From Salegentibacter lacus (GTDB taxonomy: Bacteria; Bacteroidota; Bacteroidia; Flavobacteriales; Flavobacteriaceae): 44,850 bases of DNA. The stretch is taken from contig NZ_JAIQZB010000025.1 in assembly GCF_020164555.1 (NCBI RefSeq), positions 1 through 44,850 of the forward strand, written 5' to 3'. The notes beneath the pieces were generated by a model. That model saw nothing but the letters and a program-made list of their open reading frames with translations, was not told the origin of the DNA and searched no databases. A program made the translations under genes and the position numbers. Positions 596-39,075 of this stretch are shown here, piece by piece; within the stretch, counting starts at the first letter, position 1, and each line of letters begins with the position of its first letter.

Positions 596-2308
596 CTATC
601 GGCTAAGCAAGAGCCCCGCATTAATCCACTGCCAAATATGAAAACTACTTTGGTTGTCTCCGGCTTTATAATTACTCCATTCCCTTTGCATTTCTTCAAA
701 GTCAAACCAATGTGAAACACGGGAATATCTTAGTTTTTCTAAATTTTCTTCTGTAAAACCCTTTAACTCATTACCCAACCATTCCCTTTGAGGGGTTTGC
801 AGCGGACGTTTGGGAGCATAACTCAAATCTTGAGGAGCGATTTCTTTAAGTATTTCACGGATTAAATATTTCTGAATCCCATTATGAATTTTATATGATT
901 TCGGCTGGGAAAAGGCAAATTCAACCATTCTGTAATCCAAAAAAGGTTCTCTTAATTCTGTGCTATAAGCCATAGAAATCCGGTCATTGAATCTCAATGC
1001 ACGTGGAATCTTGGTGTGAAAAAGATCCCTGTACTGCAGGTTTTGTAAATTATTGTCAAATGGCCTAGGATAGACCGGTTTTTTAGCTAATTGTCTGAAT
1101 TCCTCATTTAGCACCTTCAATCGAAACGGAGTGTTTTTCCCGATTCCCTGAATAGTCGCTGTATTTCCGGAATTTTGATAATAATCATACCCCGCCCATT
1201 GCTCGTCCATTCCCTGACCATCGAGCAGAACTTTTACTCCGTCTTTTTTTGCGGTTTCAAACAATGCCGCATAAGCTAAAGTGGGCAAACCGGCATAAGG
1301 TTCATCTTGGATATCGCTTAGAAACTGTGCTTTTTCAATTACATCACCCTGATGAATTTTAACTTTTGTGAGCGGATTCTGAGTAGTTTCAATCATTTTC
1401 TGAACCCACGGCAGCTCGTCATAATTTTCGTCACCGGTATAAAAGGTATAAGCCTGAATATGTCTGTTTTCGTGAAGCCGGTTTACCAAAGCCAGCAATA
1501 GCGAGCTGTCCACTCCGCCGCTAATATTAAAGCCAATAGGAACATCGGCTCTAAATCTTAGGGAAATACTATCGGTTAAAATTTCAGAATAAGATTGTTT
1601 AGCTTCTTCAAAAGATAAGTTATTAGAATATTTGGACAGGCTTTTTTCAAACTCGTACCACTTCCTAATTTTTAAATTTCCTGATTGATATTCCAGAAAA
1701 TGTCCTCCCGGGAGTTGATATATATCAGTGTAAAAAGTCTCTGAGGGCATCCCGTAAGAACCGTACGCAAAATAATTAGCCCACACCTGTTCATTAGGTT
1801 GGTTCGACTTTAAAAGGCTTTTTATAGCTTTAATTTCACTACTGAAATAGAATTCCTGGTTTTCTTCGGAATAAAAAAAAGGCTTTACCCCAAACCTGTC
1901 CCGGGCAGCAAAAAGTTTTTTCTCTCTACTATCCCAAATAGCGAAAGCAAACATTCCATTAAGTTTATTGAGGCAGGATTTCCCCCAAACTATAAATGCT
2001 GCCAGTAAAACCTCTGTATCAGATTCTGTTTTATAATTATAATGGGCTTTTAATTCTTGTTTTAACTCTTTGTAATTATAGATCTCCCCATTAAAAGTCA
2101 GGTGATAGCGCCCGGAATTATCTTTAAATGGCTGATTGGCTTTTGCAGAAAGGTCAATAATTGAAAGTCGGTTATGTCCCAGGGTGCTATAGCCGGAATC
2201 AACATAATTCCCGGTGTGATCCGGGCCACGATGATGTTGAAGTTTCAGCATTTGCTGAAGTTTTTCGCTATTAGCCTTTGTTGAAACAATTCCTGCGATT
2301 CCGCACAT
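596..2308 (-). CDS. asnB: Glutamine-dependent asparagine synthase-like amidotransferase
   Basis: AsnB-family enzymes take ammonia from glutamine in an N-terminal Ntn-hydrolase domain and use it in a C-terminal PP-loop domain to amidate a carboxylate activated by ATP. The protein begins MCGIAGI, so Cys2 is the nucleophile; NGEIYN (73-78) is the glutamine-site motif and SGGVDS (263-268) the PP-loop. At 570 residues it is near full length with no missing motif. It is the last gene of a minus-strand operon after neuC and neuA. In polysaccharide loci AsnB homologues (WbpS type) are thought to amidate sugar carboxylates such as uronic acids. Here the target could be a nonulosonate or uronate, but ordinary asparagine synthesis cannot be excluded. 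Family assignment is secure; substrate is inferred. Confidence 0.9.
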   Translation of the reverse strand: MCGIAGIVSTKANSEKLQQMLKLQHHRGPDHTGNYVDSGYSTLGHNRLSIIDLSAKANQPFKDNSGRYHLTFNGEIYNYKELKQELKAHYNYKTESDTEVLLAAFIVWGKSCLNKLNGMFAFAIWDSREKKLFAARDRFGVKPFFYSEENQEFYFSSEIKAIKSLLKSNQPNEQVWANYFAYGSYGMPSETFYTDIYQLPGGHFLEYQSGNLKIRKWYEFEKSLSKYSNNLSFEEAKQSYSEILTDSISLRFRADVPIGFNISGGVDSSLLLALVNRLHENRHIQAYTFYTGDENYDELPWVQKMIETTQNPLTKVKIHQGDVIEKAQFLSDIQDEPYAGLPTLAYAALFETAKKDGVKVLLDGQGMDEQWAGYDYYQNSGNTATIQGIGKNTPFRLKVLNEEFRQLAKKPVYPRPFDNNLQNLQYRDLFHTKIPRALRFNDRISMAYSTELREPFLDYRMVEFAFSQPKSYKIHNGIQKYLIREILKEIAPQDLSYAPKRPLQTPQREWLGNELKGFTEENLEKLRYSRVSHWFDFEEMQREWSNYKAGDNQSSFHIWQWINAGLLLSR

Positions 2309-2423: not shown

Positions 2424-3140
2424 TTAAATCCCATTTGTCTTTCTTTCAGCTTTTAACTTTTCCAACATTTGTTCTGCTTTTCTCCAATCTTCCGGGGTAT
2501 CAATATTTACATAAGGAGAAGCGGAAGTATCAACAAAACCTATCTTCTTGCCAAAAAGGGAATTTTCATTTAAGAGTACTTCGGTTTTAGTAATATAAAT
2601 CGCTCCGTCTCTATGATAGGCTTTTGGTAAATCCTGTCTTCGGCTTATAATTTCTTTTTCACCGGTAGCGATTTGTAAAGATCCCTCACTTTCTTCAAAA
2701 ACCCAATGCGGATTATATTCCTCAGGCACTTCTCTTACTGTTACCAACGAATCGAAATTATTGTCCTGAAATTTCAGGATACATTCATCTATAAGTCCGG
2801 GTTTTCGAAATGGCGTGGTTGCCTGTAGCAAACATACCGCATCAAATTCAATTCCCTTATCCATGTAGTATTTCACCGCATGTTTCACAACCTCCAGGCT
2901 GGAACTGGAATCTTCTGCCAGATGCTCGGGACGTTTAAAAGGAACCTCAAGCTCAAGCTGTTTTGCAATTTGAATAGTGTCTTCGTCGTCTGAGCTTAGG
3001 ATTACTTTATTTAAAAGCTTTGAGTTTTTTGCCGCTTCAAAAGTGTATTGCAATAGTGGTTTGCCCCCCAGGAGTTTAATGTTTTTCCCGGGAATACCTT
3101 TGCTGCCGCCCCGGGCAGGGATTAGTCCTAAAATTTTCAT
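2424..3140 (-). CDS. neuA: CMP-nonulosonate cytidylyltransferase (NeuA/LegF-like)
   Basis: This family joins CTP to a nonulosonic acid (sialic, legionaminic or pseudaminic) to give the CMP-sugar donor in the cytoplasm. The nucleotide-binding start IPARGGSKGIPGKN (7-20) is complete and LLQATTPFR (104-112) is the second family motif; a later HRDGAIYI segment also fits. Length (238 residues) is that of the catalytic domain alone, as in NeuA/LegF/PseF proteins without an esterase tail. It begins 18 bases after the neuC stop codon. The sequence does not tell which nonulosonate is used; no LegB/LegC or PseB/PseC gene is in the window, which favours a Neu5Ac-type product unless those genes lie elsewhere. 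Confidence 0.9.
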   Translation of the reverse strand: MKILGLIPARGGSKGIPGKNIKLLGGKPLLQYTFEAAKNSKLLNKVILSSDDEDTIQIAKQLELEVPFKRPEHLAEDSSSSLEVVKHAVKYYMDKGIEFDAVCLLQATTPFRKPGLIDECILKFQDNNFDSLVTVREVPEEYNPHWVFEESEGSLQIATGEKEIISRRQDLPKAYHRDGAIYITKTEVLLNENSLFGKKIGFVDTSASPYVNIDTPEDWRKAEQMLEKLKAERKTNGI

Positions 3141-3158: not shown

Positions 3159-4316
3159 TTAATAGGTAATTGTTTTGCTATAGGTTAATTCTGAAGTGGC
3201 TAAAATTTCAGCAATCTTTATTCCTGAATTTCCATTTCCGTAGATATCGGAAGATTCAAAATGTTCGGTTTGGATTGCGTTTTCGGTCGCCTTTAAAATT
3301 TCATTTAAATTGTAGTTTACATCAGTAACATTCGTAGCCCGATTGCGTCGAAATTGCCTATTTCCAATGTTAACCACCGGCACTCCCAAAAAGGCACACT
3401 CCCTTAAACCGGCACTGGAGTTGCCTACCAGTGCTTTAGAATTCTTTAAAAGCCTTAAGAAATCTGTCGGTTCCATATTTTTAAAAAAATGTATATTTTC
3501 CGGCTTTTCCAGTTCCCTGAAAGTTCGTATTGCGTTAGATGTCCCATCAGATCCTGCATCTACATTTGGCCAGAACCAAAAAGTAGGAATATCTAATTTT
3601 TTAATTGCTTTTAGAGTTTCGGTAACATGTACTTTTGCCTGTTTATATTCGGTAGTAACCGGATGTTGCATCACTACAATATAGCCTTCTTTCCAGTTGA
3701 GTTTAGAACCCACACCCCCGTATTTTTCAATAGGATCAAAATCGAGAAATGGATATTCTGAAATCTCTTTTGCCAGGTCAATAGAAGGGCAGCCGGTGTT
3801 TATCACCTTTTCAGGATTTTCCCCCAGTTTTATTACGCGTTGTTTGGCATCTTCTGAAGCCACCAGGTGAAGATCGGCCAGTTTGGTGTTCGCATGCCTA
3901 ACTTTTTCATCAATACTACCAGTAACCTCACCTCCCTGGATGTGAACTAAAGGTATATTTTGATAAGCCGCTGCTATAGAAGTAGCGATGGTCTCAAACC
4001 GGTCGGCAATGGTGAGCACTGCATGGGGTTTCAGGTTGTAAAAAACATTGGTGAGTTCCATCACTCCCAGGCCGGTGGTTTTGGCCATGGTGGTAGGATT
4101 TTCTCCCTCCAGTACCATAAAAACCTTCGCCGCAATTTCAAATCCGTCTTTTTCAATAAAATCTACCGCGTTTCCGTATCGATCCAGGAGAGCCGATCCT
4201 GCAATAACTAGTTGTAGTTCCAGTTTGGGGTGTTCCTGTATTGCTGTAAGGGCAGTTTTAATCCGGCTGTAGGAAGGTCGGGCAGTAACGACCACGCATA
4301 TTTTACGTTTGGGCAT
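3159..4316 (-). CDS. neuC: UDP-N-acetylglucosamine 2-epimerase, hydrolysing (NeuC/LegG type)
   Basis: NeuC-type enzymes convert a UDP-GlcNAc-type sugar to free ManNAc (or a diacetamido analogue) plus UDP, the first step to nonulosonic acids. The start CVVVTARPSYSRI resembles the family's VTGTRADY region. GGEVTGSIDEKVRHA and, towards the C-terminus, LVGNSSAGLRECAFLGVPVV are typical of the epimerase fold. The length, 385 residues, is normal for the family. It is the first gene of the neuC-neuA-asnB operon and starts at an ATG. Just upstream of that ATG lies an AACCGATAACTGACAACTG-type repeat. The partner synthase (neuB) is far away at 37.3 kb on the other strand. Confidence 0.9.
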   Translation of the reverse strand: MPKRKICVVVTARPSYSRIKTALTAIQEHPKLELQLVIAGSALLDRYGNAVDFIEKDGFEIAAKVFMVLEGENPTTMAKTTGLGVMELTNVFYNLKPHAVLTIADRFETIATSIAAAYQNIPLVHIQGGEVTGSIDEKVRHANTKLADLHLVASEDAKQRVIKLGENPEKVINTGCPSIDLAKEISEYPFLDFDPIEKYGGVGSKLNWKEGYIVVMQHPVTTEYKQAKVHVTETLKAIKKLDIPTFWFWPNVDAGSDGTSNAIRTFRELEKPENIHFFKNMEPTDFLRLLKNSKALVGNSSAGLRECAFLGVPVVNIGNRQFRRNRATNVTDVNYNLNEILKATENAIQTEHFESSDIYGNGNSGIKIAEILATSELTYSKTITY

Positions 4317-4734: not shown

Positions 4735-5571
4735 TTGAAAAAGTCAAAACACAACACTTATCGGGAAAAACAAATTCCTTTGTTTTACTGGAGTGAGATC
4801 AAATTTATTTTCAGGGAAAAGGAGAATTATGGCGATTTGCTTTCAAAATACCTGGTAGAAAAGATTAGCGGAAAACCGGTGAAATTTGTTCAGCCTAAAA
4901 AGCAGCCCTGGTATAAAAGGAGCAAAACAAATTTTCTTGCGGTCGGCAGTATTCTCCACCATGCAACTAAGCACAGTATTGTTTGGGGGAGTGGCATTAT
5001 AGACCACGAGCAGGAAATTGCTGAAGCCGACTTTAGGGCAGTGCGAGGACCGCAAACCAGGGGTTTTTTATTGAAGCTGGGCTATAATTGTCCTGACGTA
5101 TATGGAGATCCTGCGCTTTTACTTCCGAAGTATTATAATCCCCAGGTGGAGAAAAAATATAAGATCGGGGTAGTTCCGCATTATCACGATTATAAAACAG
5201 CAGTAGCATTTTTTGGGGATAAACCTGGAATAAAAGTAATAGATCTGCTCACTATGGATGTGGAAGAAACTACCAGGGAAATCTTAAGCTGTGAAAACAT
5301 AATTTCCTCTTCGCTTCACGGACTAATTGTTGCCCACGCCTATAAAATTCCGGGGCTTTGGGTAGAGTTTTCCGATAAGATCTTTGGAAACGGGATCAAG
5401 TATCAGGATTACTTTGAATCACTAAAAATCCCGTTTTATAAAGCCGACTTTATTGAAAATGGCAAAACGGCTGAAGAATTGCTTGTATTAATGCAGGATA
5501 AACCACTTTTACCTAAAGTTGATCAATTAGAAAAAATCCAGAAAGGTTTGTTGGAAAGTTGTCCCTTTTAG
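4735..5571 (+). CDS. Polysaccharide pyruvyl transferase-family protein
   Basis: Members of this family transfer pyruvate from phosphoenolpyruvate to a sugar hydroxyl pair to form an acidic ketal on exopolysaccharides; some members act differently. Visible family marks are VWGSGIID, RAVRGPQTRGFLLKLG, VYGDPALLLP and ISSSLHGLIVAHAYKIP, the last containing the conserved SxxHG histidine. The product has 278 residues with no signal peptide or membrane segment. The start is TTG; no ATG lies near the N-terminal family region. It is transcribed divergently from neuC and is followed by a repeat cluster. It would add negative charge to the glycan made here. Family call is good; the exact acceptor is unknown. 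Confidence 0.82.
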   Translation: MKKSKHNTYREKQIPLFYWSEIKFIFREKENYGDLLSKYLVEKISGKPVKFVQPKKQPWYKRSKTNFLAVGSILHHATKHSIVWGSGIIDHEQEIAEADFRAVRGPQTRGFLLKLGYNCPDVYGDPALLLPKYYNPQVEKKYKIGVVPHYHDYKTAVAFFGDKPGIKVIDLLTMDVEETTREILSCENIISSSLHGLIVAHAYKIPGLWVEFSDKIFGNGIKYQDYFESLKIPFYKADFIENGKTAEELLVLMQDKPLLPKVDQLEKIQKGLLESCPF

Positions 5572-28104: not shown

Positions 28105-29013
28105 GTGAAAAGAAGTAGCGAGAATATTATTTTGCTGGAGCTTTTGGGCGGTTTGGGGAATCAAATGTTCCAATATGCAACTGCTCGGGTTTTGGCAAAA
28201 AGAAATAAATCAATTATTCTTTTAGATGACAGCTTTTACTCAAAAAAAACAGGGAATCTTCAAAAATTTCCTCGCCAATTAGACTTGAAAATTTTTGATA
28301 AATCTTTACTAATTGTAACTGCGTTACAGAAGAAAAAATTTACAGAACTTTCATTCCATAATCGTATAAAGAAAAAACTGGGATTTAACTATCCTAAAAT
28401 CTATAAAGAACCTACATTCAGGTTTAATGATCAATTATTTCAAATGAGTAGTCCAGTATATTTGAAGGGATATTTCCAGAGTTACAAATACTTTGAAAAC
28501 GAAGAAAAATTCATTCAGGGTCTTTTTGTATTTCCTGAAGAATATCTTAATAAAAATGATAGGGAGTTAAAAGATTATATATGTAACCAAAAAACAGTTT
28601 CTATTCATATAAGAAGAGGAGATTATGTAGAAAATCAACAAACTCAAGAATTTCATGGCAATTGTACTCTGGAATATTATAATAAAGCTATACTGCACCT
28701 TACTAAACAGTTTGATAATCTTAATTTGATATTTTTCTCTGATGATATTGCTTGGGTAAAAGAAAACTTTAAAGCTATATCACACAAAAAACTTTTTATA
28801 ACCGGGAATGAAAATCAAAACAGTTGGAAGGATATGTATTTAATGAGCCTATGTAATCATCACATTATTGCAAATAGCTCTTTTAGCTGGTGGGGTGCTT
28901 GGCTAAATAAAAAGCCAGGCAAACAGGTTATAGCTCCAGCAAAGTGGTTTTCAAATACTGAACAGGAGAAAAAAACAGTAGATTTAATTCCCCCCGGTTG
29001 GCTTCGTATTTGA
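28105..29013 (+). CDS. GT11 alpha-1,2-fucosyltransferase-family protein
   Basis: GT11 enzymes transfer L-fucose from GDP-fucose, most often in alpha-1,2 linkage to galactose. All family marks are present in the 302 residues: GGLGNQMFQYA (15-25), HIRRGDY (168-174) for GDP binding, and NSSFSWWGAW (257-266). The start is GTG at 28105; no ATG lies before the first motif. The gmd-fcl pair at 7.5-9.6 kb provides the donor, which supports the call. The linkage and acceptor are known only for the family, not for this protein; a few GT11 members use other sugars. Confidence 0.93.
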   Translation: MKRSSENIILLELLGGLGNQMFQYATARVLAKRNKSIILLDDSFYSKKTGNLQKFPRQLDLKIFDKSLLIVTALQKKKFTELSFHNRIKKKLGFNYPKIYKEPTFRFNDQLFQMSSPVYLKGYFQSYKYFENEEKFIQGLFVFPEEYLNKNDRELKDYICNQKTVSIHIRRGDYVENQQTQEFHGNCTLEYYNKAILHLTKQFDNLNLIFFSDDIAWVKENFKAISHKKLFITGNENQNSWKDMYLMSLCNHHIIANSSFSWWGAWLNKKPGKQVIAPAKWFSNTEQEKKTVDLIPPGWLRI

Positions 29014-29068
29014 TATTTTAGTTAAAACCTTTTTAAAAGAAATTAAAATTGACCATTTTGTAATTCTA

Positions 29069-29923
29069 ATGCAACAAAAACTTCCTTTATTATCTATAAT
29101 AATTCCCTGTTATAATGACCTCCATTTTATACAAAAGAGTGTGGATTCAGCCCTTGGGCAAACCTATCCCAATAAGGAGATAATTATTATTGATGACGGC
29201 TCAAATAATGCAACGAAAGAGATTTTACGGGGAATAGAACCGATGGTCGATTTACTAATTACCCAGGAAAATAAGGGTTTGAGCTCTGCCCGAAACGCCG
29301 GCATAAAAAAAGCCAGGGGAGAATATATTTTGGTATTAGATTCAGATGATTTTTTTGAACCCCAATTTGCTGAACGTGCCCTAGAGATTATTATCAGTAA
29401 TCCTCAGAAGTATAAAATTATTACATGTCAGGCACATAGGTTTAATAAGAAAGGTACAATTGATATTTTCACCCCTAAAGGTGGAAATATTAAAGCTTTT
29501 CTGTTTTCAAATTCAGCTATTGGAAATTCTTTATTTAAAAAAGCAGATTGGGAAAGTGTTGATGGATATGATGAAAAAATGACAAATGGGTATGAAGACT
29601 GGGAGTTTTTTATTCGTTTATTGAAAGAGGGAGGAGAAGCATTTGTTATTTTAGAACCATGGTTTAATTACAGGCAAAAAGAAAATTCGATGAGGTTGGA
29701 AGCCAACAAAGTAAAATTTGACCTATGGGAATATATTTTTCTGAAACATTCTGATCTGTATAAAAACTATTTCGATCTTTATACTAGAAATTTCCTTACA
29801 AAATTAAAGGAAGAAGAGCGAGAAAAAATAAAAAATACAGCACGTCTGGAATTCAGACTAGGAAATGCTATTTTAAAACCATTGAGAATTCTAAAATCTC
29901 AATTAAAATGGAGGATGAAATGA
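29069..29923 (+). CDS. GT2-family glycosyltransferase, paralogue of 27229-28062
   Basis: GT-A transferase of 284 residues. LSIIIPCYNDLHFIQKSV, IIDDGSNNATK, LDSDDFF with the DSDD metal site (91-94), and YDEKMTNGYEDWEFFIRL are visible. It matches the GT2 upstream of the GT11 gene over the full length. It overlaps the next gene by 4 bases if that starts at 29920. Confidence 0.9.
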   Translation: MQQKLPLLSIIIPCYNDLHFIQKSVDSALGQTYPNKEIIIIDDGSNNATKEILRGIEPMVDLLITQENKGLSSARNAGIKKARGEYILVLDSDDFFEPQFAERALEIIISNPQKYKIITCQAHRFNKKGTIDIFTPKGGNIKAFLFSNSAIGNSLFKKADWESVDGYDEKMTNGYEDWEFFIRLLKEGGEAFVILEPWFNYRQKENSMRLEANKVKFDLWEYIFLKHSDLYKNYFDLYTRNFLTKLKEEEREKIKNTARLEFRLGNAILKPLRILKSQLKWRMK

Positions 29924-30849
29924 GACCTGAGGGATCAATTATAATGGCTACTTATAACAGGGCTCATCTAATTAGTGAAAGTTTGTTGGCCATAAAAGCT
30001 CAAACATTTACCAATTGGGAATGTATAATTATTGATGACGGAAGCATTGATGAAACCTTGGAAACGGTGAAGAAATTTACAGACACTGACTTCCGTTTTA
30101 AGTATTTTACGCGAAATAAAAAATATAAAAAAGGCTTACCGGGATGTCGAAACCAGGGTCTTGATGTAGCGAAAGGAAAATATATAGTCTTTTTTGACGA
30201 TGATGATATCTCACATCCTCAATTACTGGAGTTGGCTTTAATAAATTTAAGTAAAAAAAAATATGATTTTTGTCGTTATGAACGGTCTACTTTCAGAGGA
30301 AAGTTTGAAAAGGAATTTGAATATTTGAAAGACTCTAATACCCGGGAAATAACCATCCAAAATTTAGACGCAATTATTAAAAATGAATTACCCTTTAACT
30401 CCTGTCAGGTGGTTTGGAAGAAATCTAGTATTTCTAATGAACGATTTGAAGAAAGCCTTATGTTTGCTGAGGAGTGGGAATTTTATACCCGGTTATTATT
30501 AAAAGGTTTAAAAGGAATTTCAATTGATAAAGTTCTTTATTTCGGCAGAAAGCATCCGGAATCTAATACGGGAGAGTTTTTTAGAAGAAATCCAGTTAGA
30601 ATTAATTCACAAAATAAAGCAGCTATTTTGATAATAAAAAATCTAAATTCAAAAGATTTATTTACTGAAAAACATAAAATTTTCTTTCTGAGAATGGGAT
30701 TTAATTTGAAATCTTTAACTGTTATAAAAAGAAGTCTTGATGCCGCAGGGTCTAATTCTTTTGAAAAGTTGAAGTATCAGTTAGGTTATAAATTCTACCC
30801 TTTTTTAAAACCCATTTTTCACCTTAAAAGCAAAATATTAAAAAATTAA
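29920..30849 (+). CDS. GT2-family glycosyltransferase
   Basis: GT-A transferase. GSIIMATYNRAHLISESL starts the fold, IIDDGSIDETL binds the nucleotide, VFFDDDDISHP has the metal site, and FAEEWEFYTRLLLKG gives the ED-like catalytic segment. I chose the ATG at 29920, which overlaps the previous stop as ATGA and starts four residues before the fold (309 residues); an ATG at 29908 would add four residues. The tail is basic. It ends with TAATG, sharing one base with the epimerase gene. Confidence 0.87.
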   Translation: MRPEGSIIMATYNRAHLISESLLAIKAQTFTNWECIIIDDGSIDETLETVKKFTDTDFRFKYFTRNKKYKKGLPGCRNQGLDVAKGKYIVFFDDDDISHPQLLELALINLSKKKYDFCRYERSTFRGKFEKEFEYLKDSNTREITIQNLDAIIKNELPFNSCQVVWKKSSISNERFEESLMFAEEWEFYTRLLLKGLKGISIDKVLYFGRKHPESNTGEFFRRNPVRINSQNKAAILIIKNLNSKDLFTEKHKIFFLRMGFNLKSLTVIKRSLDAAGSNSFEKLKYQLGYKFYPFLKPIFHLKSKILKN

Positions 30850-31952
30850 TGGTATTACTGTGTTTTGGCACCCGGCCAGAAGCTATTAAAATGGCTCCTG
30901 TACTATATGAATTAAAAAGGCAAAAACTTAATTTTAGGGTTTGTGTAACTGCACAACACCGGGAAATGCTCGATCAGGTATTGGGTTTTTTTGAAATTAT
31001 CCCTGATTACGATTTAGACCTGATGAAACAAAACCAAAACTTAAATTTGCTTAGCGCTGATATTGTCTCGGAAATTGATAAAGTTTTTGAAGAAATTTGT
31101 CCTGATATTGTTTTAGTTCAGGGTGATACTACTACAGCTTTTATAGCTTCCCTAGCCGCTTTTAATAGGCGAATAAAAATAGGTCATATCGAAGCCGGGT
31201 TGCGCACAGGGAATCTAAAATCTCCATTTCCGGAAGAAGGAAACCGACAACTTATTAGTCGGATTGCTGATTATAATTTCGCCCCTACTTTAATGGCTAA
31301 AAATAATTTATTGAAAGAGGCTGTCCCTGAAGAAAAAATAATTGTAACCGGTAACACTATTGTTGATGCGCTATTAATTGCCAAATCTAAAATAGCAGTT
31401 GGTTATTTGAGTGAAAAAATAAGGGAATTTCAGGTTTTGCTTCGGAAAGATAAAAAACTAATTCTAGTGACAGGACATCGTAGAGAAAATTTTGGCAAAG
31501 GTCTGGAAGCTGTCTGCCAGGCACTCTTGGAAATAGCTAAACGTGATGATGTGCAAATCATTTTCCCGGTACATTTGAATCCGACAGTAGAAAAAACCGT
31601 ATATGAGTTGTTAGACCATAATCCAAACATAAACCTGATTAAACCTGTTAATTATCCTTCATTTATCTGGTTAATGATGGAGTCAGATCTAATAATATCA
31701 GATTCCGGTGGAATTCAGGAAGAAGCTCCAAGTCTTAAAAAGCCTGTAATCGTTACGAGAGAAACGACAGAGAGAGCGGAAGGAGTAGAAGCAGGATTCT
31801 TCATTTTAACGGGAACGTCAAAAAAGAAAATTATTACTGAGGCTTTTAGGCTTTTGGATGCTCCCATGAGCTTTAGCGGAAAGCAAAATCCATTTGGAGA
31901 TGGGAAGGCTGCCGAGAAGGTTGTGAATTTCTTAATTGGCAAAAATGTCTAA
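30849..31952 (+). CDS. wecB: UDP-N-acetylglucosamine 2-epimerase, non-hydrolysing
   Basis: WecB interconverts UDP-GlcNAc and UDP-ManNAc. FGTRPEAIKMAPV (6-18), QGDTTT (91-96), HIEAGLRT (113-120), HRRENFGKGLE and SDSGGIQEEAPSL are diagnostic and complete. The length, 367 residues, is normal; the N-terminus is a few residues shorter than common. No UDP-ManNAc dehydrogenase (WecC) is in the window, so ManNAc itself may be added to the glycan. The window also has a hydrolysing 2-epimerase (neuC), so two products may be drawn from the same UDP-GlcNAc pool. Confidence 0.95.
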   Translation: MVLLCFGTRPEAIKMAPVLYELKRQKLNFRVCVTAQHREMLDQVLGFFEIIPDYDLDLMKQNQNLNLLSADIVSEIDKVFEEICPDIVLVQGDTTTAFIASLAAFNRRIKIGHIEAGLRTGNLKSPFPEEGNRQLISRIADYNFAPTLMAKNNLLKEAVPEEKIIVTGNTIVDALLIAKSKIAVGYLSEKIREFQVLLRKDKKLILVTGHRRENFGKGLEAVCQALLEIAKRDDVQIIFPVHLNPTVEKTVYELLDHNPNINLIKPVNYPSFIWLMMESDLIISDSGGIQEEAPSLKKPVIVTRETTERAEGVEAGFFILTGTSKKKIITEAFRLLDAPMSFSGKQNPFGDGKAAEKVVNFLIGKNV

Positions 31953-33198
31953 AATCCAAAAGAAAATACTTATTGTGGTTGAATCAATTGACATTGAGGA
32001 TAGCAGTGGCTCTAAGGCAAATGTTGCGTTAATTCAAAATCTTTATAAGGCCGGTTTTGAAATACTCGTCTACCATTATACAAGAAAAGAAATTCAGATT
32101 GATGATATTCAATGTATAAGTATAAGGGAAAATCGGCGTAGCTTTCTGTTTTTCCTAAGTCGTATAGAGCGTCAAATCAGGTATAAAACAGGCTGGAAGT
32201 TTAATAAGTATATTGAGCAGCTATTTGGTTTTTCTTTTACATTATTCAACGATCGAAATAGTATCGTAACTGGATTAAAAAAACTGGAAAACTTTGAGCC
32301 TGATCTTGTTCTCACTTTAAGCAAGGGGGGTAGTTTTAGACCCCACCATGCGCTTTTAAAAATTCCAGAATATCATGCCAGGTGGATGGCCTATATTCAT
32401 GATCCTTATCCTTTTGCCTATTTTCCCAGACCTTATGATTATGTAGAGCCGGGGCATCAACAAAAAAGAAACTTTATGAGTGCGGTGGGTATGAAAGCAA
32501 AATTTGTTGCCTACCCTAGCGAGCTACTGGCGGAATGGATGGAGAGTTATTACCAGTCCATGGAAGGAAAAAAAATTATAATTCCTCATCAGATATTAGA
32601 CAAAATAGAAGATGAAATAGAAGAACTACCTGATTTTTTTGATCCTGAAAAATTTAATATACTTCACGCCGGAACACTTTTATGGGGCAGGAGTCCAATG
32701 GGACTTGTAAAGGGATTTTTAAAGTTTCTGGAATGGTATCCCGAAGCAAAGAGAATTGCCATGCTTTTCTTTATCGGCGGTAAAAATTATTATACAGAAG
32801 AGCTTGAAAAAATTAGTAGTAATTACCCGGAAATATTTATTAGCAAGGATTATCTTCCTTTTGCTATTACTCAAGCTTTGCAAGCCCAATCTTCGGTAAA
32901 TGTTATTTTAGAAGCTAAAGGGCCTATTAGTCCATTCTTACCCGGAAAGTTTCCACACTGTATTCAAGCAGGGAAGCCTATCCTTTTATTAGGTCCTTAT
33001 TATAGTGAGAGTAAAAGATTGTTAGGCGATCATTACAAGTATCACGCTGAGATTGATGAAGTTGAAAAAATTTCAAAACTTATTGCAGTACTTTATGAAA
33101 ATTGGAAATTAGACCCCAATTCAAAAATAATGTGGGATGATTTGAGCAAATATTTATCCTCTGCCAATTTTACATCAACTTTAAAAACTAATTTATGA
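31945..33198 (+). CDS. Putative GT4-like glycosyltransferase
   Basis: A 417-residue protein without membrane segments. The N-terminus ILIVVESIDIEDSSGSKANVA resembles the acceptor loop of GT-B enzymes, and WMAYIHDPYPFAYFPRPYDY and FNILHAGTLLWGRSPMGLVKG fit the first domain and the domain linker. The usual GT4 EX7E motif is not plain; GPISPFLPGKFPHCIQAGKP takes its place. I prefer the ATG at 31945 over the TTG at 31936; the overlap with wecB is then 8 bases. It overlaps the next gene as ATGA. It is probably a glycosyltransferase, but the donor is unknown. Confidence 0.7.
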   Translation: MSKIQKKILIVVESIDIEDSSGSKANVALIQNLYKAGFEILVYHYTRKEIQIDDIQCISIRENRRSFLFFLSRIERQIRYKTGWKFNKYIEQLFGFSFTLFNDRNSIVTGLKKLENFEPDLVLTLSKGGSFRPHHALLKIPEYHARWMAYIHDPYPFAYFPRPYDYVEPGHQQKRNFMSAVGMKAKFVAYPSELLAEWMESYYQSMEGKKIIIPHQILDKIEDEIEELPDFFDPEKFNILHAGTLLWGRSPMGLVKGFLKFLEWYPEAKRIAMLFFIGGKNYYTEELEKISSNYPEIFISKDYLPFAITQALQAQSSVNVILEAKGPISPFLPGKFPHCIQAGKPILLLGPYYSESKRLLGDHYKYHAEIDEVEKISKLIAVLYENWKLDPNSKIMWDDLSKYLSSANFTSTLKTNL

Positions 33199-34355
33199 AG
33201 ATTCTAATGGTATCCATGTCTTCTATTCATTTTTTCCGGTGGGCAGAGCAATTGAAGGATTCAGGCCACGAAGTTTATTGGATTGACGTTTTTGATTCGA
33301 ACAATTATAATCCCAAAATTGGTTTTGTAGGACAAATTATTGGATGGCGAAATAAAATAAACTATCCTGGTAGATATTTGGTAAAAAAAAAGTTTCCAAG
33401 GCTTAATAACTTTGTAAACAAATTTAATCAAAGGAAATTAGCTGATATAGTTGATAAGAAAATTAAAGAAATAGAACCTGATGTAGTACATAGCTTTATT
33501 TTACAATCCGCAGTATTCCCTTTGCTCGGAGTTATGCAAAAAAAAACCGCAGTTAAATGGATTTTTTCTGCCTGGGGGAATGACTTGTTTTATGGGCAAC
33601 AACTTCAGAGACAATCTATTGAGATGAAATTAGCTTTGCCTTGTTTACATTTTATGTTTGCAGATTGTACAAGGGATTATTTTGTTGCTCGAAAGCACGG
33701 ATTTAAAGGGGAGTATTTAGGAACATATCCAACCGGAGGAGGGTATAGACTGCATAAATACCAGAAATCAACATATCCATTTGAATCCAAAAAATGTATT
33801 ATAATAAAAGGGTATCAGGACAACTTAGGAAGATGTAATACTGTTTTGGAAGCATTAGAAAAACTAAAGGCTGAACTTTTCAACTTTAAAATTATTGTAT
33901 TTGGTGCTAATGAGAAAGTTGAAAAATTTGCTAAAAAAAATGGAATTTATTTTTGGGATAATTTTGAACTTTATTTTCACATCCCCCATAAGGAAGTTTT
34001 GGAATTAATGGGGAAAAGTAAAATTTATATAGGGAATAATATTTCCGATGGGCTTCCCAATACATTACTTGAAGCCATAATTATGAAATGTTTTCCAATC
34101 CAATCAAATCCCGGTGGTGCGTCCTCAGAATTGATTGCGGACGGGTATAATGGTTTATTAATTGAAAATCCTGAAAGTTCTATAGAGATAAAAGACCTGG
34201 TAGTACGTGCCATAAAGGATGAAAATTTAATGAAAAATGCAATAGAACATAACTCTAAATATATTGTACCTAAATTGGAGAGGGAGTACATCAGGAAACA
34301 GGTTTTAGAAAAGTATAAGTTAATTGAAGATAAGATAAACCATAAAAATGATTAA
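33195..34355 (+). CDS. GT4-family glycosyltransferase
   Basis: GT-B enzyme of 386 residues. ILMVSMSSIHFFRWAEQLKD opens the acceptor domain; WIFSAWGNDLFYGQQLQ is typical of one GT4 subgroup. DGLPNTLLEAIIMKCFPIQ carries the donor motif with Asp as the first acidic residue, followed by NPGGASSELI. It starts inside the stop of the previous gene (ATGA) and overlaps the PP-loop gene by 8 bases, so the three are likely co-translated. Confidence 0.88.
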   Translation: MKILMVSMSSIHFFRWAEQLKDSGHEVYWIDVFDSNNYNPKIGFVGQIIGWRNKINYPGRYLVKKKFPRLNNFVNKFNQRKLADIVDKKIKEIEPDVVHSFILQSAVFPLLGVMQKKTAVKWIFSAWGNDLFYGQQLQRQSIEMKLALPCLHFMFADCTRDYFVARKHGFKGEYLGTYPTGGGYRLHKYQKSTYPFESKKCIIIKGYQDNLGRCNTVLEALEKLKAELFNFKIIVFGANEKVEKFAKKNGIYFWDNFELYFHIPHKEVLELMGKSKIYIGNNISDGLPNTLLEAIIMKCFPIQSNPGGASSELIADGYNGLLIENPESSIEIKDLVVRAIKDENLMKNAIEHNSKYIVPKLEREYIRKQVLEKYKLIEDKINHKND

Positions 34356-35514
34356 AATCTTTCCGCCAACAATTAAAGAGGGGAAAAAAGAATGCATCAT
34401 TGCTGCGGAATTTGAATTAGAGGGTCGGCGTGAGGAACTATGGTATAGGCTCCCAAATGAGTACAAACCTTATATAGTGACTGAACAGTTGGATGCATTT
34501 GTCATTGCGTTATTATTCTTAGGGTTAAAAACAGGTCAGGATATTAAATTGATGGCCCCTATAAGCTCCAGATTGTTTTATTCTATAAAACATTATATAA
34601 TAGATGCACTTTGTTTGGTAAATTCAGCTTACACAAAAATAAAAATTATACCAACTACTTTAAGTACTTTGGATTTTAATACCAGGGGAGTTGCAGGCAC
34701 AGGTCTTTCGTGTGGTATTGATTCTTTTGCCAGTTACTATGATCATTTGGATGATGAGAAACCCTATAAAATTGAGTATTTTACTTTTTTTAACGTGGGA
34801 TCTCATGGTGATTTTGGGGGTGAGAAAGCTAGGATGATTTTTAAAGATAGATTTGAAAATGTCCAGACTTTTGCGAGTGAGGTTGGAAGAGAGGTAATCA
34901 CCATTGATTCCAATTTGAGTGAAATTTTAGGAATGAAATTTCAAGAAACTTATAATTTAAGAACAATTTCCTGTGTATTGATTTTACAGAAACTGTTTAA
35001 AAATTATTATTATGCTTCGGGGACTAGGTTTGATCATTTTAGTTTTAATAAAGATGAAATAGCTGATTTGGATATGTTACTTATCCCAAACCTTAGTACA
35101 GAATCAACTTCAATTTTTGTTTCTGCTTTAAAATATTCCAGGATTGAAAGAACAGATTTGATCTCTAGGTATTCTGAAACTTATAAATATTTGGATGTAT
35201 GTACTCATCCTTTCGAAAAAAATAGATCATATTTAAACTGTTCAAAATGTTATAAATGTAAAAGGACAATGTTAACATTGGAAGCACTAGGAAAATTGGA
35301 TCTTTATTCGGGAGTTTTTGATGTTAAAAGATTTAGAAAAGAAAAATATGATTATATAGGTTGGCTCCTTTCAAAGGAAAAAAAATTGACCTTGGATAAA
35401 GAATTAATCATATTTCTATATTCAAGAAATATGATTAATTCTAAGGTTCACTTTTACACTATTAAAAATGCACTATTTAGACAAAAAATGATGTTGAAAA
35501 AAATATTCAGATAA
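34348..35514 (+). CDS. PP-loop ATPase-like protein with QueC-like cysteine cluster, function unknown
   Basis: I do not recognise this 388-residue protein as a named enzyme. TGLSCGIDSFASYY (118-131) looks like a PP-loop, SGGxDS, with the second residue changed to Cys (SCGIDS, 121-126). Cys285, Cys298, Cys301 and Cys304 (the last three in NCSKCYKCKR) form a C-x12-C-x2-C-x2-C cluster like the zinc site near the end of QueC. YYASGTRFDHFSF (221-233) might be a substrate loop. About 110 residues before the PP-loop have no visible relative. PP-loop enzymes adenylate a carboxylate or carbonyl for amide, nitrile or thio formation, so modification of a sugar acid or amide is possible. It is locked between two GT genes (8-base overlap, 2-base gap). 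Confidence concerns the fold. Confidence 0.6.
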   Translation: MIKIFPPTIKEGKKECIIAAEFELEGRREELWYRLPNEYKPYIVTEQLDAFVIALLFLGLKTGQDIKLMAPISSRLFYSIKHYIIDALCLVNSAYTKIKIIPTTLSTLDFNTRGVAGTGLSCGIDSFASYYDHLDDEKPYKIEYFTFFNVGSHGDFGGEKARMIFKDRFENVQTFASEVGREVITIDSNLSEILGMKFQETYNLRTISCVLILQKLFKNYYYASGTRFDHFSFNKDEIADLDMLLIPNLSTESTSIFVSALKYSRIERTDLISRYSETYKYLDVCTHPFEKNRSYLNCSKCYKCKRTMLTLEALGKLDLYSGVFDVKRFRKEKYDYIGWLLSKEKKLTLDKELIIFLYSRNMINSKVHFYTIKNALFRQKMMLKKIFR

Positions 35515-35516
35515 AT

Positions 35517-36593
35517 TTGTTATCTATAATTTATCCATACCGTAACCGGGATATAAGCCGGGTCAAAAAATCTTTAGATTCCTTGGTCGAACAAAGCTTC
35601 AGGGATTTCAAAGTATTTTTAGTGGATTACGGTTCTTCAGAATCCTTTGCTTCTAAAATAAAAGAATTATGCAAAAGCTATGATTTTGTAACCTATAATT
35701 ATTGTAATACCCAATATCAACCTTGGAATAAAAGCAGGGCCTTGAATTCGGTAATAAAAAGCCTTACTTCCGATTTTTGTTTTGTAGCCGATGTGGATAT
35801 GATCTTTCACCCCGATTTTGTTAAAAATGCCTTGAAACTTCAGCAGCCTGAAACAACAGTTTATTTTCAGGTTGGATTTTTAAGTCCTGATGAGGGAGTC
35901 GAAGGAAAGAAATATAATGAATTTACTAATTACCGAAAGAGTACCTCAGAGGCTACCGGGTTAAGTATGTTTCCGGTTAAGGTTTTACAAGAATTAAGAG
36001 GCTTCGATGAGTTTTATCATTTCTGGGGTGCCGAAGATACCGATATGCACATTCGTTTAAAAAAATCAGGTTACCCGGTTAAATATTATGATAAGGAAAT
36101 TTTAATGCTGCATCAGTGGCACCCGTCTTACAGAAGTAAAGAATCTAAAAAGCTGACTGAAGATCTTCAAATTAACGGTATCGTTCCATTAAATCATCAA
36201 CACCTTAAATTTGCAATCGAAAATAAGGTTAGGCAAACAAATATCAGGAAATGGGGAGAGATCATGTCCGAAACAGATAAGATCGAACTGGAAGGTGCAT
36301 CTGTGAATTTTAGAATTCAAACCGAAAAAAGACAGGTAGATGATTTTCTCTACGGTCAGTTACCTGGCATAAAGAATAAAATTTTAAAAGTAGTAATTGA
36401 ACCCGACCCGTTTCATAATTCTAAAAAATTTCTGATCAAAAAATTATTAAAAATGAAGTTACCTGTTTATTATAGTTTAAAGGAAGTAAATGATCTTGTG
36501 CTTTTACACCTTATATCTTTCTACCGGGATAAAGCTTATATCTATAAGGTTGAGAGTGTGAATAAGCAAATTATCCTTGCTATTAAATTATGA
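35517..36593 (+). CDS. GT2-family glycosyltransferase with GT7-like C-terminal motif
   Basis: GT-A enzyme of 358 residues. LSIIYPYRNRDISRVKKSL starts the fold, CFVADVDMIFHPDF contains the DVD metal site (92-94), and FWGAEDTDMHIRLKKSG (169-185) matches the WGxEDxD motif of galactosyltransferase/chondroitin-synthase type domains. About 120 residues after the catalytic core are of unknown use. The start is TTG, 2 bases after the PP-loop gene's stop; no ATG is near. It overlaps the next gene by 4 bases. Confidence 0.83.
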   Translation: MLSIIYPYRNRDISRVKKSLDSLVEQSFRDFKVFLVDYGSSESFASKIKELCKSYDFVTYNYCNTQYQPWNKSRALNSVIKSLTSDFCFVADVDMIFHPDFVKNALKLQQPETTVYFQVGFLSPDEGVEGKKYNEFTNYRKSTSEATGLSMFPVKVLQELRGFDEFYHFWGAEDTDMHIRLKKSGYPVKYYDKEILMLHQWHPSYRSKESKKLTEDLQINGIVPLNHQHLKFAIENKVRQTNIRKWGEIMSETDKIELEGASVNFRIQTEKRQVDDFLYGQLPGIKNKILKVVIEPDPFHNSKKFLIKKLLKMKLPVYYSLKEVNDLVLLHLISFYRDKAYIYKVESVNKQIILAIKL

Positions 36594-37216
36594 GAAAACA
36601 GGAGCAAATTTTAACTGAATATAAAGAGTTTTGTGCTGCAGAAGGCAACCAACATATCGCCAGTGAGTATGCTGTTATAAAGCTTCAGGACATAATAGAT
36701 AGTTTTGGCGTTGAAAATATTTTGGAAATAGGTTTAGGGATCGGAGCCATTGCCGGGAGTCTTCTTCCAGTTAATGAACACCTAAAATACGCCGGCACCG
36801 AAGATAATGAATTTTGTCTGGATGCCCTAAAGACGAATCTTGGTGAAAAGTATAGAAAAGTAGAGGTGTTTTCTGAACTTTCTGAAGTGCCTCAAATAAA
36901 ATTCGACCTGATCATAATCGACGGAAAAGACCCCGACCTCGCAAAAATCCAACAGTTGGTAACCCAGCATGGGATTATTGCCATAGAAGGGGACAGGATA
37001 CCGCAGCAGGAAATGCTAAGAAAGTATTTTCCCGGCCAAAAGTATGTGCACTCCATCAGTATCAAAAAAAATGCTGCTTATAGTCCGTTTCCACAGGGGC
37101 AATGGAAGGGAGGCTTGAAGATCATTTTTGTCAATCCCAATCTGCACCAGACAATTTGGTGGTTGAGGGAGAAAGTATTTACAAAATTAAAATATCTTTA
37201 TAGGAAATTGAGGTAG
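36590..37216 (+). CDS. Class I methyltransferase-like protein
   Basis: The 208-residue protein has a Rossmann methyltransferase core: VENILEIGLGIGAIAGSL (about 41-58) as motif I and FDLIIIDGKDPDLAKI (about 105-120) as the IDG motif seen in O-methyltransferases. The C-terminal 25 residues are basic and aromatic (TIWWLREKVFTKLKYLY) and could touch the membrane. It overlaps the previous GT gene by 4 bases. Acceptor unknown; activity is likely but not certain. Confidence 0.7.
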   Translation: MRKQEQILTEYKEFCAAEGNQHIASEYAVIKLQDIIDSFGVENILEIGLGIGAIAGSLLPVNEHLKYAGTEDNEFCLDALKTNLGEKYRKVEVFSELSEVPQIKFDLIIIDGKDPDLAKIQQLVTQHGIIAIEGDRIPQQEMLRKYFPGQKYVHSISIKKNAAYSPFPQGQWKGGLKIIFVNPNLHQTIWWLREKVFTKLKYLYRKLR

Positions 37217-37225
37217 GAACTAATG

Positions 37226-37269
37226 CCCCTCGGCCTCCCGTTGTGAAAACGGGACAAGCTCTAAAGGGG
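37226..37269. repeat. Nested inverted repeat upstream of neuB
   Basis: TCCCGTT (37236-37242) and AACGGGA (37248-37254) make a perfect 7-bp stem with loop GTGAA; outside it CCCCT (37226-37230) pairs with AGGGG (37265-37269). It lies in the 86-base gap between the methyltransferase gene and neuB. It has no T-run, so it may be a palindromic repeat or a leader structure. The GTG in the loop is an unlikely start codon. Confidence 0.55.
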
Positions 37270-37302
37270 AAGCTAAAAGAAAGTGTTTTAAAAATTAAAT
37301 CT

Positions 37303-38304
37303 ATGTTTATTATAGCGGAAATAGGACAGGCCCACGAGGGCAGCTTTGGATTGGCTTTGTCCTATATAGATGCCCTGGCGGAAACCGGAGTTGATGCCGT
37401 GAAATTCCAGCTCCATATAGCAGAGGCGGAGAGTAGTGAATATGAGCCTTTTCGGGTAAAGTTTAGCGAGCAGGACAAAACCCGTTTTGATTACTGGAAG
37501 CGGATGGAATTTAGCCTGGACCAGTGGAAACTTCTAAAACAAAGATGTAATGAAAAAGGGGTGGAGTTCCTGGCTTCTCCTTTTAGCAACGCTGCTGTGG
37601 ACCTTCTGGAGCAAATAGGAGTCAAGCGCTATAAAATAGGTTCTGGAGAAGTGAATAACTTTTTATTGCTGGAAAAAATAGCAAAGACCCGGAAGCCGGT
37701 AATTATTTCTTCCGGGATGAGTTCTTTTATGGAACTGGATAGAACGGTAGAGTTCCTGAAAGAGCGAAAAATTGAATTTTATATCCTTCAATGTACCACT
37801 GCCTATCCCACAAAGCCGGAAGATTATGGCTTGAATGTGATTAAGGAACTCAAAGATCGCTACAAAGTGCCGGTCGGCTATTCCGATCATTCGGCGAAAA
37901 TTGAAACCTGCATTGCAGCAACTGCAATGGGCGCTGATATCCTCGAGTTTCACGCAGTATTTGACCGCCGCAGCTTCGGCCCGGATGCATCTTCTTCTTT
38001 GGAGATCGATGAGATCAAAAACCTGGTGCAGGCGGTAAAAAACATTCATTCCTCCCTGCAGCAGCCCGCTGATAAAGCTGATAATTCCCGTTTTAGTGAC
38101 CTAAAAAATATCTTTGAAAAATCCCTGGCAGTGAATAAAGATTTACCTGCGGGTCACATACTTTCTTTTGACGATCTTGAAGCCAAGAAGCCGAAAGCTG
38201 AAGGAATTGATGCCAAGGACTATCAGGAGGTGATAGGCAAAAAGCTCTTAAAAAGTTGTTCTCGATGGGAATTTCTTGTGAATGATAGCATAATCCGCTC
38301 TTAA
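37303..38304 (+). CDS. neuB: N-acetylneuraminate/nonulosonate synthase
   Basis: NeuB-family enzymes condense phosphoenolpyruvate with ManNAc (NeuB) or a diacetamido hexose (LegI/PseI) to give a nonulosonic acid. FIIAEIGQAHEGSFGLALSY (2-21) is the family start; VDAVKFQ (30-36), YKIGSGEVNN, SSGMSSFMEL, LQCTTAYPT and GYSDHS follow in order, covering the metal and substrate sites of the barrel. The last 65 residues are the SAF (antifreeze-like) lid. I start at ATG 37303 (333 residues) because it is two residues before the conserved strand; an upstream GTG at 37243 lies in a hairpin loop. Its partners neuC and neuA are 33 kb away on the opposite strand. Confidence 0.92.
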   Translation: MFIIAEIGQAHEGSFGLALSYIDALAETGVDAVKFQLHIAEAESSEYEPFRVKFSEQDKTRFDYWKRMEFSLDQWKLLKQRCNEKGVEFLASPFSNAAVDLLEQIGVKRYKIGSGEVNNFLLLEKIAKTRKPVIISSGMSSFMELDRTVEFLKERKIEFYILQCTTAYPTKPEDYGLNVIKELKDRYKVPVGYSDHSAKIETCIAATAMGADILEFHAVFDRRSFGPDASSSLEIDEIKNLVQAVKNIHSSLQQPADKADNSRFSDLKNIFEKSLAVNKDLPAGHILSFDDLEAKKPKAEGIDAKDYQEVIGKKLLKSCSRWEFLVNDSIIRS

Positions 38305-38307
38305 AAA

Positions 38308-39075
38308 ATGAATGAACTAAAGAAAATAGCACATGGAATTATCTCCCTTGTTGATCATTGGGAAAAATGGAAATGGGGAGGGCTTCTTCTTTTAAGGAAG
38401 AGGCTGTTATATCCTAACAAAATAATAGAGATCAAACTTAGAGAGTTAAAACAGCCGGTTTACCTCAGGAATAGTACTTCCGATATCACGGTCTTTTATC
38501 AGGTGTTTTTCCAAAATAGTTATAATTTCAACTACTCTTCTCCTGTTGATGTTATTATTGATTGTGGTGCAAACATTGGTTTATCAAGCATTTTCTATGC
38601 CCATCACTTTCCAAATGCTATGATCATAGCAGTGGAACCGGAAAGAAATAATTTTAAAATGTTGGAAAAAAATTGCAGGCCCTTCAAGAATATTATTCCC
38701 GTTAGAGCAGGTGTTTGGAATATGAATACTAATTTACGTTTGGTTAATAAAACCGATCAACCCTGGGGTATGCAGGTTGAGGAAACGACAGATCAAAAAT
38801 CTGATATTGAGGCGCTCTCCATTCCATATTTATTTCAAAAGTATAACTTAAAAAAGATCGATATTTTAAAGGTCGACATAGAAGGTTCCGAAAAGGAATT
38901 ATTTGAAACCGGTACTGATGATTGGCTTCCATATACTAGAATACTTTGTATTGAATTACATGATCATTTAAGAAAAGGAGCGTCCCAGTCTTTCTTTAAA
39001 GCACTTAGAAAATATGAATATAGCATGTTAAAGAGAAAGGAAAATCTGATTTTTTTTTTAAATCATAAAGTGTAA
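38308..39075 (+). CDS. FkbM-family methyltransferase
   Basis: A 255-residue SAM-dependent methyltransferase. VIIDCGANIGLSSIFYAHHF (about 80-99) is motif I and KIDILKVDIEGSEKELF (about 183-199) is the DIEG motif; IAVEPERNNFKMLEKN fits the ribose-binding acidic loop. It starts 3 bases after neuB and shares a base with the next gene (TAATG). It is the third FkbM domain in the window. It may methylate the nonulosonate or a neighbouring sugar, judging only from position. Confidence 0.87.
   Translation: MNELKKIAHGIISLVDHWEKWKWGGLLLLRKRLLYPNKIIEIKLRELKQPVYLRNSTSDITVFYQVFFQNSYNFNYSSPVDVIIDCGANIGLSSIFYAHHFPNAMIIAVEPERNNFKMLEKNCRPFKNIIPVRAGVWNMNTNLRLVNKTDQPWGMQVEETTDQKSDIEALSIPYLFQKYNLKKIDILKVDIEGSEKELFETGTDDWLPYTRILCIELHDHLRKGASQSFFKALRKYEYSMLKRKENLIFFLNHKV

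Follow-up and report, generated by a model that had tools for sequence, protein, structure and literature searches.

What does a QueC-like PP-loop protein do inside an operon of glycosyltransferase genes? The question is raised by the gene for P0001, a 388-amino-acid protein encoded in a 44,850-nucleotide stretch from Salegentibacter lacus (Flavobacteriaceae; assembly GCF_020164555.1, contig NZ_JAIQZB010000025.1, positions 1 to 44,850 of the forward strand), hereafter the window. The known roles of QueC-type enzymes are in tRNA base modification and, as found more recently, in modifying proteins for phage defence. We tentatively propose, as a reading that falls somewhat short of probable, that P0001 is a PP-loop ATP-pyrophosphatase of QatC-like layout that activates the carboxylate of an acidic sugar for amide formation in surface polysaccharide synthesis. 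The PP-loop family to which it belongs is real, intact and conserved, and is unnamed in the libraries searched. The proposal draws on the predicted fold, the conserved ATP loop and four cysteines, the operon context and the recurring acid-sugar and pyruvyl-transferase neighbours, from which we infer zinc binding, ATP use, a carboxylate substrate and an amide product.

P0001 is intact and has a predicted PP-loop fold

The gene and the parts of its product, in window coordinates, are as follows.

34348..35514, + strand: PP-loop/QueC-QatC-like protein P0001, 388 amino acids (open reading frame, AlphaFold2 model, Foldseek)
34348..34686, + strand: N-terminal alpha/beta domain, residues 1-113 (secondary structure of the AlphaFold2 model)
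34708..34725, + strand: PP-loop SCGIDS, residues 121-126 (sequence; G123 and D125 in 22/22 rows of the family alignment)
35200..35259, + strand: C-x12-C-x2-C-x2-C, residues 285-304, probable zinc site (sequence, conservation, analogy with QatC)
35323..35508, + strand: C-terminal three-helix extension, residues 326-387 (AlphaFold2 model)

The open reading frame (ORF) starts with ATG, contains no internal stops and was the single match to the gene in a search of the whole genome (4,054,538 bases). Both motifs on which the initial annotation had rested, the SCGIDS loop and the four-cysteine cluster (C285, C298, C301 and C304), are present in this intact frame. The N terminus reads MIKIF, and the start typical of a Cys2 glutaminase is absent.

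None of the four libraries searched gave a clear match to a characterised family. P0001 matched no family in Pfam at E-values up to 10, and hence not QueC (PF06508), and none in NCBIfam at up to 0.1, neither NF041925 nor TIGR03573. PADLOC, at up to 1, returned nothing for ten family members including P0001, and PHROGs, at up to 0.1, nothing for P0001; the sole PHROG match among the six proteins submitted was that of a viral member (L038) to the QueC-like phrog_1550 (9.3e-4). An Azospirillum member matched DUF6395 (0.17) and QueC (0.39) in Pfam near its cysteine cluster, both below cut-off. A sequence search of the PDB with P0001 alone gave implausible matches only (immunoglobulin-binding repeats and others), and with the family profile it gave PP-loop enzymes, none of them better than E 0.08.

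The AlphaFold2 model, built from 14 aligned sequences, had a mean predicted local distance difference test score (pLDDT) of 91.3 and a predicted template modelling score (pTM) of 0.89, and it predicts a PP-loop fold, HUP/Rossmann-like with an SxGxDS-type loop. When the model was searched against the PDB with Foldseek, 410 matches were found at E up to 10 and a single one below 1e-3, QatC in the QatB-QatC complex (9y01_B; E 3.8e-5, probability 1.00), aligned at 12% identity over 415 columns with gaps. This match is one of elements and their order rather than a tight superposition, because the template modelling (TM) scores were 0.41/0.38 and the root-mean-square deviation was 10.3 over the 415 gapped columns. 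Ranks 2-12 (E 0.009-0.063) were GMP synthetases, an NAD synthetase, the thiolase NcsA and the unnamed entries 2e18 and 9kpv. In BFVD, ranks 2 and 3 were models of phage 7-cyano-7-deazaguanine synthase (QueC), the better one with a TMt of 0.63.

In the model, five strands (residues 2-4, 8-11, 15-24, 27-36 and 66-68) and three helices (37-42, 49-62 and 74-91) precede the loop, and three helices form the C terminus. The published description of QatC (PMC13279940, in the part available) has a QueC core in which C334, C354, C357 and C360 bind zinc; a parallel sheet of four strands, with three helices, comes before this core and three C-terminal helices come after it. As for the first 110 residues of P0001, which the initial annotation had called unfamiliar, an extension ahead of a QueC core has a precedent in the top fold match, although the two extensions may differ in fold. 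A short turn connects strands 15-24 and 27-36, which seem to run antiparallel as a hairpin; this argues against a plain match to the parallel sheet of the QatC N terminus. For the overall layout as modelled, QatC is the likely counterpart. By analogy with QueC and QatC, the four cysteines probably bind zinc.

The motifs are conserved in a two-clade family

An alignment of 22 family members, a selection of those available, was invariant (22/22) at G123, D125, N189, R265, the four cysteines, N297 and K303; the motifs of P0001 are therefore not due to chance. The viral members had been retrieved with the pattern NC[SG]xCxKCxR, and the Christiangramia and Synergistaceae members by a scan with six patterns, one of them NCSKCYKC, so cysteine conservation in those rows was partly selected for. 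Nine further rows, P0001 aside, were obtained by whole-protein or profile searches, and 9/9 retain all of the named residues. The second loop position is C in 11 rows, G in 6, L in 2, A in 2 and S in 1. The substitution of Cys for Gly that had attracted attention is thus genuine in P0001 and, being present in 11/22 rows, a lineage trait, but it is no hallmark of the family.

By sequence comparison, the relatives are one unnamed family with two clades. Profiles of the clade 1 side and of clade 2, with no shared rows, matched at 99.8% (E 4.1e-30) over 304 columns. Clade 2 proteins are about 426 amino acids long.

The family is distinct from QueC, QatC and WbuX

Against seven QueC sequences the 22-row profile gave 82.7% (E 9.5e-6) over 64 columns around the loop, and this value for the loop half, together with the predicted fold, bears out the resemblance to QueC and other PP-loop enzymes noted at the outset. 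Against three QatC sequences the value was 35%, and here, unlike in the other comparisons, the aligned part went beyond the surroundings of the loop, to which the alignments with a GMP-synthase-like protein (22.7%), E. coli QueC alone (11.0%) and the AsnB-type protein of the window (3.9%) were confined. A clade 2 profile gave 37% with QatC and 18.2% with QueC, the QueC alignment keeping register between the loop and the cysteine cluster. QueC and QatC compared with each other gave 95%; from these values the family appears as a separate branch, more distant from QatC than QueC is.

As modelled, P0001 resembles QatC (9y01; NF041925) in having a domain before the loop, the PP-loop core, four cysteines ending in C-x2-C-x2-C and three C-terminal helices, although the flanking parts of the two proteins may not correspond. 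It differs in its loop (SCG against SGG), its first cysteine spacing (x12 against x19), the lack of the stretch STRTTHP and its glycan gene neighbours, and NF041925 has no match in P0001 or the window genome. Neither QatB with an MGTS start nor QatA or QatD was seen among the listed neighbours of the PP-loop gene, the annotated ones being glycan genes. QueC (PF06508) likewise has a PP-loop followed by four C-terminal cysteines, but with SGGxDS and C-x8-C-x2-C-x2-C where P0001 has SCGIDS and C-x12, and P0001 has extra parts on both sides of the core and lacks the motifs YPDC, VPxRN and YxQxHxxE that the available part of PMC13329287 gives for QueC.

WbuX, PseA and WbpG (TIGR03573) are, like P0001, PP-loop enzymes of surface sugar loci. 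The initial annotation considered its protein different from them in layout, and this was confirmed: P0001 has no TIGR03573 match, and its cysteine pairs lie after the loop, whereas in two WbuX homologues they lie before it, an order that PMC13329287, in the part consulted, also terms reversed. AsnB-type enzymes resemble the role proposed for P0001 in activating a carboxylate with ATP to give an amide, but P0001 has no Cys2 glutaminase domain and no Pfam match, and its profile hardly resembles the AsnB of the window. By the features tested here, the family is neither QueC, QatC nor WbuX.

Matches resembling TIGR03573 (E between about 1e-36 and 1e-40) were also seen in 8/100 Flavobacteriaceae genomes (L061-L068), in very long frames of about 1,380 amino acids; large multi-domain Flavobacterial proteins of this kind are mentioned in PMC13329287 (partial text).

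The gene sits among acidic-sugar genes

The PP-loop gene is part of a run of 18 plus-strand ORFs (26097-44717) that overlap or are separated by gaps of up to 55 bases. As the initial annotation had observed, it overlaps one glycosyltransferase gene, by 8 bases, and almost touches another, across a 2-base gap. Eight clade 1 Flavobacteriaceae loci (the window, L001, L002, L003, G007, G010, G061 and G063; stretches of unequal length, three from Christiangramia) were searched with the window genes by tblastn, and recurrence among them is given with each gene below.

31936..33198, + strand: glycosyltransferase-like protein (Glyco_transf_4, 18.1 bits, below cut-off; 7/8 loci)
33195..34355, + strand: GT4 glycosyltransferase, overlapping the PP-loop gene (PF00534, 62.6 bits, over cut-off; 5/8 loci)
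35517..36593, + strand: GT2-like glycosyltransferase, following the PP-loop gene (NCBIfam matches below cut-offs; 7/8 loci)
36590..37216, + strand: methyltransferase-like protein (sub-cutoff Pfam matches)
37243..38304, + strand: NeuB-like nonulosonic acid synthase (TIGR03569, 312.8 bits, cut-off of 399.65 not reached; 7/8 loci)
3159..4316, - strand: NeuC-type UDP-GlcNAc 2-epimerase (TIGR03568, 395.3 bits, over cut-off; 5/8 loci)
2424..3140, - strand: CMP-nonulosonic acid synthetase-like protein (PseF, 168.3 bits, cut-off of 205.7 not reached; 6/8 loci)
596..2308, - strand: AsnB-type glutamine amidotransferase (TIGR01536, 416.5 bits, over cut-off; 5/8 loci)
4735..5571, + strand: polysaccharide pyruvyl transferase (sole PF04230 match in the window genome)

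The glycosyltransferase gene at 31936, the GT2-like gene at 35517 and neuB all recur in 7/8 loci, the NeuB of the G010 locus being 30% identical to that of the window. The one locus that differs, L022 (G061), carries two genes for nucleotide-sugar dehydrogenases, so that by family names all eight loci (8/8) contain acidic-sugar genes, either the NeuB set or sugar dehydrogenases. One nucleotide-sugar dehydrogenase gene is also present in the clade 2 locus L026.

Elsewhere in the window, a 577-amino-acid ORF (21310-23043) appears by eye to combine a glycosyltransferase-like part with an FkbM-type methyltransferase, a 212-amino-acid ORF (20651-21289) looks sulfotransferase-like, and a 96-amino-acid ORF amid the glycan genes (5794-6084) looks like a GIY-YIG endonuclease.

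Pyruvyl transferases recur near the PP-loop gene

All 14 genomes examined with a PP-loop gene (14/14) carry one or two PF04230 genes, and in 12/14 one lies on the same contig within 30 kb of it. Mere presence is weak evidence, because 57/100 Flavobacteriaceae genomes also match. A profile built from 13 neighbour genes was then run over 36 loci. It found a pyruvyl transferase within 1.2 kb of the PP-loop gene in 12/36, from four phyla and one viral contig (L012, L015, L016, L021, L022, L026, L027, L028, L031, L087, L090 and L093); the profile is circular for its source loci, and PF04230 or public annotation backs each of the 12. Because the 12 include close kin (two from Azospirillum, four from clade 2 Flavobacteriaceae and two from Gloeothece), they amount to about seven independent cases when kin are counted once. 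In L034 and L037 weak matches were found no further than 1.6 kb away, and the distance was 6.6 kb in L023 and 28.8 kb in the window. The profile found no pyruvyl transferase in the stretch covered in the other 20/36 loci; L089, without a match by profile, carries two genes annotated as pyruvyl transferases, of which the closer is two genes away.

As a control, 10 PP-loop genes were compared with 150 listed of 169 GT4 genes in ten Flavobacteriaceae genomes. A pyruvyl transferase was within 30 kb of 10/10 PP-loop and 53/150 GT4 genes, within 5 kb of 6/10 and 12/150, and within 2.5 kb of 5/10 and 7/150. The nominal tails of about 1e-5 are too small, since four of the five PP-loop cases within 2.5 kb are orthologous clade 2 loci; for clade 1 only, the counts were 1/6 within 2.5 kb and 6/6 within 30 kb.

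Two candidates were set aside. A fusion of PP-loop protein and pyruvyl transferase in L014 (Paracoccus) and L032 (viral) is not claimed: profile comparison of the extra N terminus gave 0.2%, Pfam gave a pyruvyl-transferase match below cut-off for L032 (2.4e-4, 21.6 bits) and none for L014, and a single-sequence model was uninformative (pLDDT 34). For a pyruvyl-transferase-like gene beside the phage members L036 and L037 the matches are likewise weak: Pfam gave L036 20.8 bits, below cut-off, profile comparison gave 44%, and hmmsearch gave 4.1e-4 for L037 and nothing for L036.

Proposed function and alternatives

In the proposed reaction, ATP would bind at the PP-loop, and zinc held by the four cysteines would complete the fold as in QatC. 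P0001 would then adenylate the carboxylate of an acidic sugar component with release of pyrophosphate, and ammonia or an amine would attack the adenylate to give an amide. Candidate carboxylates would be C1 of a nonulosonic acid, C6 of a hexuronic acid or that of a pyruvate ketal, which a pyruvyl transferase would install. A sugar-acid substrate is suggested by the operon and by how often acid-sugar and pyruvyl-transfer genes accompany the PP-loop gene. Since the 388 residues of P0001 show no glutaminase domain, the donor would be free ammonia, as for QueC, or an amine. Both QueC and Cap9 have the carboxylate of 7-carboxy-7-deazaguanine as their target (PMC13279940, and for action on a carboxylate also PMC13329287, both in part), and marine bacterial polysaccharides contain sugar-acid amides such as GalNAcA6(D-Ala) (PMC3210612, in part). 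A more specific version, in which the family pairs with pyruvyl transferases and caps ketal, nonulosonic or uronic carboxylates as amides, possibly nitriles, to hide surface-glycan charge in bacteria and some phages, is doubtful.

Several observations weigh against the proposal. Related PP-loop enzymes also yield amidines, thio groups and nitriles. The superposition on QatC is loose, RNase H chains appear among the PDB matches from rank 13 (E 0.07), and BFVD gave no match below E 1e-3. The pyruvyl transferase is 354 kb from the PP-loop gene in G367 and on other contigs in G698 (Synergistaceae), and four haloarchaeal loci have none within about 7 kb. The neighbours in L004 and L025 are transporter and NADH-dehydrogenase genes rather than glycan genes. 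Finally, the loop region gave 79.7% with one WbuX homologue, nearly equal to the QueC value.

This last value, and the nonulosonic acid locus itself, would suit an amidine-forming sugar amidotransferase like PseA, WbpG or WbuX, in which the N-acetyl oxygen is activated and exchanged for nitrogen. We consider this unlikely, given the opposite placement of the cysteine pairs and the absence of TIGR03573 not just from P0001 but from the whole window genome (0 matches); a HisH/HisF-type partner was not seen by eye among the window ORFs, no aimed search having been made.

That QatC is the closest solved fold, and that tail or baseplate genes are found close to L032 and L038, both viral members, could point instead to a protein modifier like QatC or Cap9, joining a carboxylic acid to the N terminus of a partner, perhaps a glycosyltransferase, a pyruvyl transferase or a phage tail protein. 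Known substrates of this type start with MGGS or MGTS. No such start was found among the listed neighbours of 21 loci (up to three ORFs per side, starts chosen mechanically, with poor ORF lists for L014 and L015), where two ORFs start with MGGL and MGGG. QueC is absent from the window genome, and P0001 lacks the YPDC and VPxRN of QueC and the STRTTHP of QatC, which together make this alternative quite unlikely.

Thiolation of a sugar acid, or its conversion to a nitrile, is very unlikely. Precedents exist in QueC, which turns an amide into a nitrile, and in the sulfur-inserting enzyme LarE (PMC13329287, in part), and the AsnB-type gene of 5/8 clade 1 loci could provide the amide, but AsnB was not found in the retrieved stretches of the other 3/8. 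Queuosine or other nucleoside synthesis, for which the QueC-like fold speaks, is rejected, as it was by the initial annotation, because P0001 lies in a glycan operon, has no Pfam match and lacks the canonical QueC motifs, and because a search of the window genome for QueC, though not for QueD or QueE, gave no match.

Among amide, amidine, nitrile and thio products, an amide on an acidic sugar remains our tentative proposal for P0001. The initial annotation held such chemistry to be new to loci of this kind, a claim that needs correcting: sugar-acid amides are already described in PMC3210612, and PMC13329287, as far as its text was available, places the sugar amidotransferase WbpG in a sub-cluster near QueC. 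The available main text of the latter does not mention polysaccharide, pyruvyl or capsul. In the open full-text literature (without most subscription journals and preprints) no paper was found that ties a PP-loop/QueC-like family to polysaccharide or pyruvyl-transferase loci, and the titles of papers on QueC-like proteins with polysaccharide, or on QueC with glycosyltransferase and pyruvyl, do not point to the PP-loop family; a QueC/QatC-type enzyme in glycan loci looks new. If the proposal is true, a glycan-serving branch would add another field to the QueC-type fold, a family whose plasmid-record members are annotated as hypothetical proteins would gain a name and a test, charge-masking modifications would be predicted in marine bacterial polysaccharides, and the result would bear on the reaction of QatC, which PMC13279940 leaves open in the part available.

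The family is patchily distributed

The family ranges over Bacteroidota, Synergistaceae, alphaproteobacteria, cyanobacteria, Bacillota, haloarchaea and phages. A scan of genome contigs gave 58 pattern matches, four of them confirmed relatives (at 67, 66, 66 and 31%), and the closest named relatives of P0001 are three Christiangramia records (Flavobacteriaceae), among them L003 from C. echinicola DSM 19838. In a Flavobacteriaceae sample, 9/299 genomes matched, six in one clade (the window genome included) and three, with weak scores of about 5e-4, in the second; neither of the two other listed genomes of the same genus had a match. A draw of 395 Bacteroidota genomes, searched with the first alignment, gave four matches: the window genome, G220 (clade 2, E 5.0e-8), G367 (E 1.2e-25) and G366, the last dropped as chance (E 4.3e-4 over 30 profile positions in a 55-amino-acid frame). 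Nine plasmid records have a family member (seven from Azospirillum and two from Paracoccus), and for clade 2 there are 19 (haloarchaea, Priestia, Gloeothece and Pseudobutyrivibrio). Such a scattered distribution suggests that the gene is accessory and mobile between genomes.

On viral contigs, alignment and pattern scans gave 11 loci, identical in a repeat scan, with L040 and L041 being the same stretch; a search of these contigs with the single P0001 sequence gave no match, nor did a search of phage GenBank records for the family. The neighbours include UvsX and single-stranded DNA-binding protein genes in L037, baseplate and tail fibre genes in L038 and a tail fibre gene in L032. The position of viral members by tail fibre or baseplate genes (L032:1715-9095 and L038:6375-10809) could mean modification of the virion or of the host surface. 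A Synergistaceae relative lies between the tripartite tricarboxylate transporter genes TctC and TctA (L004:8984-13132), a carboxylate-transport context. Tandem pairs of PP-loop genes occur in L031 (6779-7942 and 7908-9065) and L087 (7956-9164 and 9364-10569); the first copy in L031 lacks R306 and T307 but retains the four cysteines, and the pair perhaps forms a heterodimer. In L035 (7974-10520), the reading frame of the PP-loop protein also encodes an aspartyl/asparaginyl beta-hydroxylase domain (PF05118, 1.2e-10).

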